Shown here piece by piece: positions 23,713 to 25,763 of a stretch of DNA of 64,000 nucleotides. Both the position numbers and the translations under genes were made by a program. The stretch's first letter is position 1; each line of letters starts with the position of its first letter. The stretch is from assembly GCF_000364445.2 (NCBI RefSeq), contig NZ_CP043538.1, forward strand, positions 2,487,612 through 2,551,611, read 5' to 3'. The notes below the pieces were generated by a model. That model was not told the origin of the DNA, made no database searches, and saw only the letters and a program-made list of their open reading frames with translations. This DNA comes from Methylobacterium mesophilicum SR1.6/6 (lineage in GTDB: Bacteria > Pseudomonadota > Alphaproteobacteria > Rhizobiales > Beijerinckiaceae).

Positions 23713-23738
23713 GGAACGCGGCCCGCGCCTCACCCGTT
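23713..23738 (+). promoter_or_regulatory. EcfG-type general stress promoter
   Basis: GGAAC (23713-23717), a 17-base spacer, then CGTT (23735-23738) is an exact match to the alphaproteobacterial EcfG/PhyR-regulon promoter GGAAC-N16/17-cGTT. It lies 46 bases ahead of the start codon of the 42-residue gene, leaving room for a short leader and its ribosome site. Confidence 0.65.
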
Positions 23739-23784
23739 GAACCGAAAGCTGCGCCGTTGTGGCGTTCTACCGGAGGGCCGACCC

Positions 23785-23913
23785 ATGAACCTGATCGGAC
23801 GCATCGTCACCAAGCTCCTCGGCAACGAGAACCGCCCCGTCGATCGCGACGACCGGAACGCCAGCTCGGCGACGCCGATCGGCCGCCTCGTCACGAAGAT
23901 CCTGGGCAAGTAA
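23785..23913 (+). CDS. 42-residue protein with an internal duplicate
   Basis: A short gene: ATG 23785 follows a strong CGGAGGG ribosome site and TAA ends it at 23911-23913. The protein has two near-identical amphipathic segments, IGRIVTKLLGN (residues 4-14) and IGRLVTKILGK (32-42), joined by a charged linker (ENRPVDRDDRNASSATP). There is no signal peptide. Both segments look like short cationic helices that could bind membrane, nucleic acid or a partner. It lies 97 bases after pyk but has its own EcfG-type promoter. I recognise no family. Confidence 0.78.
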   Translation: MNLIGRIVTKLLGNENRPVDRDDRNASSATPIGRLVTKILGK

Positions 23914-24009
23914 CCGTCACGGTCGCCGCGCCCACCCCAGGGCGCGGCGCCAGTCCGAGGAGCCCGGCGCCCGAGCGCGCCGATCAGCGACCGGTTTCCC
24001 AGACGCGCC

Positions 24010-24154: not shown

Positions 24155-25342
24155 TCAGTTCGCCACCGCGCTCGCGGTCTCCTTCAGCGTCGGCGCCGCC
24201 GGGACCGTGTGCTGCCAGAACGTGCCGGTCCGGCCCTTCTCCAGACCCTCCTCGTACAAGGCCCGCATGTAGGCGGTGTCGAATCCCTTGGAGGCCGGTA
24301 CCTTCGGGCCGCCCTCATCGATGTAGGTGAGATTGAATCCAATCCCGTTGTTGCGCGCCAGGGCGTAGGTCGCCGTGAGCGTCGCCCGCGAGCGGGCCCG
24401 GCTGGCCGTGGTGAAGGAGCGCTCCACGATGGAGAGGGTGTTGTCCTTCGTGACCTCGAAATCGGGCTCCAGGCGCCCGTTGATCACCACGTAGATCTCG
24501 GCCTTGCCACCCGTGCGGATGCGGCGGTCGCGCAGGAGCAGGGTCTGTGGGAGGGTGAAGACCGGCGTCACCACCGAGCCGTCGACGTGCATCTCCTGGA
24601 AGCGCGCGTCGCCGGCCGAGACGTCGATGAATTGCGGCGGGAAGACCGCCGGGATGCTGGCGGAGGCGGCCAGCACGTCGCGGAACAGCTCCCGGGTGTT
24701 GGGCGCGCCGCTCGCCGCGATGGCACCCATGTTCCAGATCACCGCGCGCTGGGAATCCAGGTTGGTGGTCACCACGAGCAGGCGCCGGCCCTTGGCGTGC
24801 TCCTCGGCCACCGCCCGGATCAGGTCCGGGGTGACGTAGCGGTCGATCAGGTTGCGCAGGCGCCCGTCGCCGAACAGGCCGGACCCGAACAGCACGTTCG
24901 CGATGTTCGGCGAGGCCACCAGTTCGCCGGCGACGCCGCTGGTGTAGAACTCGGTGAGGTACGCGTCGTAGGCGGAGCCCAGGAACGCGAAGGGCGCGAT
25001 CAGCGCGCCTGTCGAGACACCCGACACCAGGGTGAATTCGGGGCGCTTGCCCGAGGCCGTCCAGCCGTTGAGCACGCCCGCCCCGTACGCGCCGTCGCCG
25101 CCGCCGCCGGAGAGCGCCAGATAGGAAAAGCCCGAAGATCGGCGTTGCGGGTTGGCCGCCAGCTCCGCGATCGTCTCCACAGACGCGTCCGCGAAGACCC
25201 GGGCGCCGGGAATGCCCGGCACGGTGGCGAAGGTCGCCTGCTCGGCCGTGTAGGGTGCGCGCGGAACGCTTCCGCAGGCCGCGACCTGACCCGCCAGCCC
25301 GAGCACGGCCAGCGCGCGCAGGCCCATCTGACGGAAACCCAT
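24155..25342 (-). CDS. patatin-like phospholipase lipoprotein
   Basis: A 395-residue lipid-anchored patatin hydrolase. ATG 25342, preceded by GAGG, opens a lipoprotein signal (LAVLGLAGQVAAC, lipidated Cys23). The patatin core shows the oxyanion loop SGGGGDGAYGAG, the nucleophile elbow GVSTG (Ser) and the dyad Asp in VDGSV. The enzyme should hydrolyse acyl chains of lipids at the cell envelope. A GGAACG-N18-CGTTCC inverted repeat lies 43-71 bases upstream. The open frame continues to 25465 but without a signal sequence. Confidence 0.88.
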   Translation of the reverse strand: MGFRQMGLRALAVLGLAGQVAACGSVPRAPYTAEQATFATVPGIPGARVFADASVETIAELAANPQRRSSGFSYLALSGGGGDGAYGAGVLNGWTASGKRPEFTLVSGVSTGALIAPFAFLGSAYDAYLTEFYTSGVAGELVASPNIANVLFGSGLFGDGRLRNLIDRYVTPDLIRAVAEEHAKGRRLLVVTTNLDSQRAVIWNMGAIAASGAPNTRELFRDVLAASASIPAVFPPQFIDVSAGDARFQEMHVDGSVVTPVFTLPQTLLLRDRRIRTGGKAEIYVVINGRLEPDFEVTKDNTLSIVERSFTTASRARSRATLTATYALARNNGIGFNLTYIDEGGPKVPASKGFDTAYMRALYEEGLEKGRTGTFWQHTVPAAPTLKETASAVAN

Positions 25343-25763
25343 CGTCCTCACCCCGATCCGTGGTCCGCGACCACTGTGCCATACGGAACGAGCTTGGCCG
25401 TATCGCCCGTTCCCGCTTTGCCGGCAACGGGGCGCGATATGGCCGCGCTGTTGCGCTGCGGTCACGATCCCATCGGATCACGGCGCGAGCGAGGCCGTTG
25501 CGGAATGCGGGTCGGCGCCGGGCCGCAGCCTTTGCCGGTGGACAGGGGAGGCTGTGCCCCCCCGGCCGCCCTTGCAACGCTCGGGAACGCCGCGCTAGGG
25601 TTCCCCGTGGCTCGACGGACAGGGTGTCGCACGCGGTGCGGCAGCCTTGGCGCGGGTACGCAGTCTGCATGGCAGCTTGGCCAGCCGGATGATGGGTCGT
25701 TCGGCCCACGGGGCGGACGGCAGACCCGGGCGGCACCGGAGCCGCAGGGGGCGGAGGGGGAAT
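25343..25763. other. gene-free divergent region
   Basis: The 421 bases between the patatin gene (leftward) and gcrA (rightward) carry the GGAACG dyad near the patatin end and otherwise GC-rich sequence. No GANTC methylation site or CtrA box was noticed close to the gcrA start. Confidence 0.5.
25385..25413. promoter_or_regulatory. GGAACG...CGTTCC inverted repeat ahead of the patatin gene
   Basis: GGAAC-N18-CGTT reads on both strands because the element is a 6-base dyad with a 17-base centre. It resembles an EcfG promoter facing the patatin gene, but the spacer is one base longer than the reported 16-17. It may instead be an operator. Confidence 0.35.

Follow-up and report, generated by a model that had tools for sequence, protein, structure and literature searches.

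A predicted two-helix 42-residue protein behind an EcfG-type stress promoter, conserved in nearly all genomes of the genus Methylobacterium

Introduction

The closest described system to the locus studied here is the EcfG regulon of Methylobacterium extorquens AM1. In a study on M. extorquens, the EcfG promoter consensus is given as GAAC-N16,17-C/GGTT, and 490 genes are reported to be down in a six-fold ecfG mutant (PMC4814048). Many general-stress genes are without a known role. Outside this pathway, a useful reference is SpoVM, a small membrane-surface peptide with a short, cationic, amphipathic helix.

We examined a 64,000-nucleotide window of the Methylobacterium mesophilicum SR1.6/6 genome that contains a gene for a 42-residue protein. 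The locus resembles the M. extorquens AM1 system in the form of its promoter, in coming from the same genus in the GTDB sense, and in having the NepR/PhyR switch of its genome at the same motif. With SpoVM the protein shares a predicted short cationic amphipathic helix; it differs in carrying two such helices, near-identical and tethered, its membrane binding is putative, and the likeness is one of form.

Gene, promoter and regulatory context

The features of the locus are collected in Table 1. The gene encodes MNLIGRIVTKLLGNENRPVDRDDRNASSATPIGRLVTKILGK, and the DNA of its two repeats, IGRIVTKLLG and IGRLVTKILG, is identical at 25 of 30 bases. An earlier note on this DNA had described the ribosome site, the two near-identical segments and a GGAAC-N17-CGTT motif, all of which are present in the window where it had placed them. 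Its count of 43 codons is correct if the stop codon is included, the protein itself having 42 residues.

Table 1. Coordinates of features at the locus, numbered from the first base of the window.
Feature	Position	Strand	Basis or remark
EcfG-type promoter: -35 GGAAC (23713-23717), 17-nt spacer, -10 CGTT (23735-23738)	23713..23738	+	Form kept in 109/109 loci
Leader element AAGCTGCGCCGTT, where the mRNA is predicted to begin	23746..23758	+	Transcription start inferred at about 23745-23747
Small predicted leader hairpin, GCGCC-loop-GGCGT	23751..23765	+	Predicted fold
Ribosome-binding site GGAGG	23772..23776	+	8 nt 5' of the ATG; read from the sequence
Gene for the 42-residue protein	23785..23913	+	ATG 23785, stop 23911-23913
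Helix 1, residues 3-12 (LIGRIVTKLL)	23791..23820	+	Structure models and conservation
Flexible linker, residues 13-30	23821..23874	+	Sequence and length differ among species; low pLDDT
Helix 2, residues 31-40 (PIGRLVTKIL)	23875..23904	+	Structure models and conservation
Inverted repeat GCCGCGCCC-ACCCCA-GGGCGCGGC	23925..23948	+	Possible transcript end, without a T run; read from the sequence
Patatin-like phospholipase gene (PF01734), next gene	24155-25465	-	Pfam match
Promoter-like site GGAAC-N18-CGTT 5' of the patatin gene	25413-25387	-	Read from the sequence

Within the window, GGAAC-N16/17-NGTT was found once, against 1.45 matches expected from shuffled sequences. This is not above chance, and the case for the promoter must rest on the comparison between genomes. 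In the genome as a whole, GGAAC-N17-CGTT occurs at 33 sites and the reversed pattern at 21, a mild enrichment. Among the 109 homologous loci, every one has GGAAC-N16/17-[CTG]GTT within 200 nt 5' of the ATG, with the -10 box reading CGTT in 87, TGTT in 15 and GGTT in 7. The published C/GGTT form is thus matched in full by 94 loci, and the 15 with TGTT fall outside it. Elsewhere in these loci, across 625,292 bases with both strands included, there are 17 motifs of this kind, of which 15 lie, in 15 loci, at one conserved place 5' of the neighbouring patatin gene and the remaining two are opposite-strand readings of that place. Judged from these sequences, conservation of the promoter over 109 loci, among which spacers and neighbouring genes vary, is not due to chance. 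The EcfG-type assignment made in the earlier note stands in that the form is kept genus-wide and agrees with the M. extorquens consensus (PMC4814048), and we strongly infer that the 42-residue gene is under EcfG control.

The switch of the pathway was located with the NepR profile PF18557, which matched eight places in the M. mesophilicum SR1.6/6 genome, six of them over the cut-off. The NepR frame at 801022 stands after GGAAC-N17-CGTT, with its first in-frame ATG 12 nt past the motif and another at 75 nt, and the frame divergent from it is PhyR (PF22029, E 1.4e-23; PF22233, E 6.2e-21). In this genome, then, the NepR/PhyR switch itself lies at a promoter of the expected EcfG form. The 42-residue protein is like NepR in being small, predicted to be helical and probably of the same stress pathway, but its gene (genome positions 2511396-2511521) is not among the eight PF18557 places. 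The eight NepR-like places suggest several anti-sigma paralogues, which agrees with the title of the M. extorquens study (PMC4814048).

A further conserved element lies where the mRNA is predicted to start. The hexamer AAGCTG is found no more than 22 nt past the -10 box in 83 of the 109 loci, compared with 0.3% of shuffled leaders, and extends to a conserved 13-nt form, AAGCTGCRCCRTT. If AGGCT is accepted beside AAGCT, 87 loci have the element, 86 of them at an offset of 6-10 nt. It is missing from 22 loci that keep the protein, namely all 19 loci with a long protein and three with the 42-residue form. The exact 13-mer has a single copy in the M. mesophilicum SR1.6/6 genome; with up to one mismatch allowed there are 15 sites, and the reversed pattern also has 15. 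The combination of promoter and AAGCTG has the 42-residue gene as its sole match in this genome. Over the genus it matches 93 of 111 genomes; in many of them the match is at the 42-residue gene, and in others it lies elsewhere. The small hairpin predicted in the leader was rejected as a conserved feature: stems averaged 6.05 bp, compared with 5.34 bp with shuffled tails, over 82 distinct leaders, of which only six reached p<=0.05, giving no support beyond chance.

Two other observations concern promoter-like DNA. One genome (G317) holds five copies of an identical 43-nt promoter-like stretch that ends in AAGCTG, perhaps part of a mobile element. Another promoter-like stretch, GGAACAAACAAGGAACCTGGCGGTTGCGACTCCCGAAGCTG, recurs nearly unchanged in several species.

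The genes nearest upstream and downstream fall into several unrelated groups over the 109 loci (approximate groups, since nearest genes were picked by GC frame), so the promoter and the gene persist as a unit. A constant partner gene was sought and not found, as neighbours differ across the loci. The patatin family, named from the copy in the window, stands nearest on the downstream side in 45 of the 109 loci. The 15 related loci with a motif at the patatin-upstream place have it as GGAAC-N16/17-CGTT, and on the strength of this motif the patatin gene may belong to the same stress regulon.

Selection and distribution

Selection was analyzed on 87 distinct 42-residue coding sequences, which represent 90 of the 109 loci, with the 19 loci for longer proteins excluded. 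The ratio pN/pS was 0.36 for helix 1, 0.53 for the linker and 0.21 for helix 2, and the five other reading frames gave 0.61 to 2.08. Nonsynonymous change was also lower in the helices than in the linker (pN 0.053 and 0.075 versus 0.210). Coding conservation is biased toward synonymous change, as one would expect of the gene that the earlier note proposed, and this pattern of substitution supports a real protein-coding gene under purifying selection.

The protein has 42 residues in 90 loci and 44, 46, 48, 49 or 50 in the other 19. Glycine, valine, lysine and leucine are invariant in both repeats (109/109 each), two further sites are R/K and T/S throughout (109/109), and the remaining repeat sites vary among I, L and V. 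Gene conversion between the repeats left no sign, with same-codon use for a shared residue at 0.588 within genomes and 0.590 between them. A special RNA constraint on codons 2-13 was also discarded: the low synonymous rate there is equally a property of cysK, whose rate in related genomes was 0.132 in codons 2-13 and 0.326 in codons 31-42 (22 of 30 cysK loci usable, against 26 small-gene loci of the same clade). A gcrA control (29 of 30 loci) proved out of register and was excluded.

With a profile of 18 sequences, a single-copy homologue was found in 109 of 111 Methylobacterium genomes and in 108 of the 109 good ones. The two genomes that lack one are fragmented assemblies of 730 and 610 contigs, with completeness of 90% and 70%. 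Among 248 genomes drawn from the family and queried with one 44-residue form, 21 matched, 16 of them in the genus; the other five matches are weak and partial (E 0.008-0.08) and lie in other genera. Of 24 genomes from the order's other families, 5 had weak partial matches (E 0.14-1). A pattern scan over 84,980 species, one genome per species, returned 84 relatives, and the 80 of these that were listed are Methylobacterium or Methylorubrum except for two MAGs, labelled Beijerinckiaceae and Methylobacteriaceae.

A search of 5.8 billion proteins returned 102 at E<=10, many being unnamed metagenome proteins. Those with a good E value and a named source are from Methylobacterium or Methylorubrum, or carry wider labels that take in these genera (one cluster 'Pseudomonadota', one 'Methylobacteriaceae'). 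In one metagenome protein, P0090, both helices are kept around a very different Gly/Ser-rich linker. Four matches (P0093-P0096, E 0.002-0.5) look like translated CRISPR arrays, with F-Q-S/F-LIGRLVT recurring between variable stretches, and P0064 and P0091, which are fusions encoded on short contigs (about 500-560 bases), are probably assembly chimaeras; all six were set aside on this reading. No convincing homologue outside the genus was found in the family, order, species-wide and 5.8-billion-protein searches.

The claim that gene finders would miss the gene does not hold, as relatives are already in NCBI (e.g., P0006, P0025, P0042), although one M. bullatum record, with an incomplete gene table, has no feature at the locus. 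These Methylobacterium relatives of the 42-residue protein itself carry the name 'TFIIS helical bundle-like domain containing protein'. The TFIIS/Med26 helical bundle, which we take to be PF08711, does not appear when 59 members are compared with Pfam at E<=10, a search that returned four weak families (E 0.06-0.2), and the window protein matches no Pfam family at E<=1. The NCBI name is misleading and without support. NCBIfam, PHROGs and PADLOC profiles gave no family for four proteins each, no Rfam family (gathering score) and no tRNA was detected in the window, and among solved structures there was no relative of the protein. Literature searches on the protein (by name, by GRIVTKIL, on small proteins of the PhyR regulon and on ribosome profiling), mostly outside subscription journals, found no paper whose title or passages concern it. 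An N-terminome study of M. extorquens DM4, cited in PMC8765459, might contain peptides of the protein.

Predicted structure and proposed role

AlphaFold models from the single sequence and from 59 sequences both placed helices at residues 3-12 and 31-40, in line with the helical nature suggested in the earlier note. The packing of the helices is not confident (mean pLDDT 71.8 and 65.0, pTM 0.26 and 0.24), and the deeper alignment did not raise the confidence. The two helices have hydrophobic moments of 0.59 and 0.57 and charges of +2 and +3. Comparable values of moment and charge are rare in the window: of 16,426 12-residue segments taken from 38 long stop-to-stop frames, 45 reach them. Permutation of the residues equals the moment in 3-4% of cases, and in up to 6% for a long-linker relative, which makes the amphipathicity moderate. 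Both segments have the character of the cationic amphipathic helix of a membrane-surface peptide, at moderate strength.

The best explanation for these properties, which we hold tentatively and with somewhat less than even confidence, is that EcfG drives expression of a general-stress protein and that its two cationic amphipathic helices bind the surface of the inner membrane. The gene would be transcribed alone, as a unit of the general stress response of alphaproteobacteria. Under stress, PhyR would take up NepR and free the sigma factor EcfG, RNA polymerase with EcfG would start at GGAAC-N17-CGTT, and the short mRNA would be translated into the 42-residue peptide, whose two near-identical helices, LIGRIVTKLL and PIGRLVTKIL, are joined by a flexible polar linker. 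Both helices would most likely rest against the inner membrane on its cytoplasmic side, with their hydrophobic side inward and Arg/Lys toward anionic lipid, and the two contacts per peptide would stabilize or mark the membrane under stress. Membrane-surface binding as such is weakly supported, being read from composition. On the other hand, 10-12 residues are short for a membrane helix, and the conservation of Gly, Thr and Val, invariant or almost so in both helices, is stricter than generic binding needs.

That strictness favors the main rival, which we consider possible but clearly less probable, namely a bivalent docking peptide. Each helix would fit the same protein groove, with the tether allowing one peptide to bridge two subunits of a dimer or an oligomer, and the peptide would serve as an EcfG-induced adaptor or inhibitor. 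Both repeats retain the same residues in all 109 loci, linker length is free, and a GxxxT small-residue ridge on each helix, as read from the sequence, could be a packing surface. Against docking, no one gene stays adjacent, an argument that in another weighing favors neither docking nor the membrane. Moreover, a degenerate DNA pattern of the motif matches only the 42-residue gene in M. mesophilicum SR1.6/6 (2/2), so a second user of the motif is not seen in that genome.

A speculative reading that we regard as rather unlikely is that this is a genus-founding stress effector of new build. In it, one short helix, repeated across a loose tether, would act as a two-handed clamp retained in almost all Methylobacterium, the surroundings of the gene would be exchanged, and the start of the short mRNA, AAGCUGCRCCRUU, would in the majority of species be a conserved regulatory site specific to this gene.

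The remaining explanations fare worse. At least two copies of the protein might pack their helices into a soluble bundle as the working form; the two symmetric amphipathic helices would suit such self-assembly, but the models, which are of monomers, have low pTM values and we think it improbable. Small, cationic and amphipathic, with an mRNA leader conserved in most species, the peptide might also be a membrane-active toxic or dormancy peptide of the kind that type I toxin-antitoxin systems encode. These tend to be patchily distributed and multi-copy, and the single copy in 109 of 111 genomes, together with the empty Rfam, PADLOC and PHROGs searches, makes this very improbable. Least probable of all, and hardly to be expected, is that the leader RNA does the work and the peptide is secondary, since the element, conserved as it is in most species, is absent from 22 loci that keep the protein, protein-level selection is clear in both helices, and the low synonymous rate at the start of the gene is ordinary.

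Conclusions

The gene is listed in databases, yet apparently unstudied and misnamed, and the comparison of loci makes a strong case for its membership in the EcfG regulon. The analysis corrects a misleading database name. It also points to a gene that is tiny, single copy and nearly universal in a widespread plant-associated genus, without constant neighbours, and these properties together make a direct test of a minimal stress effector feasible.
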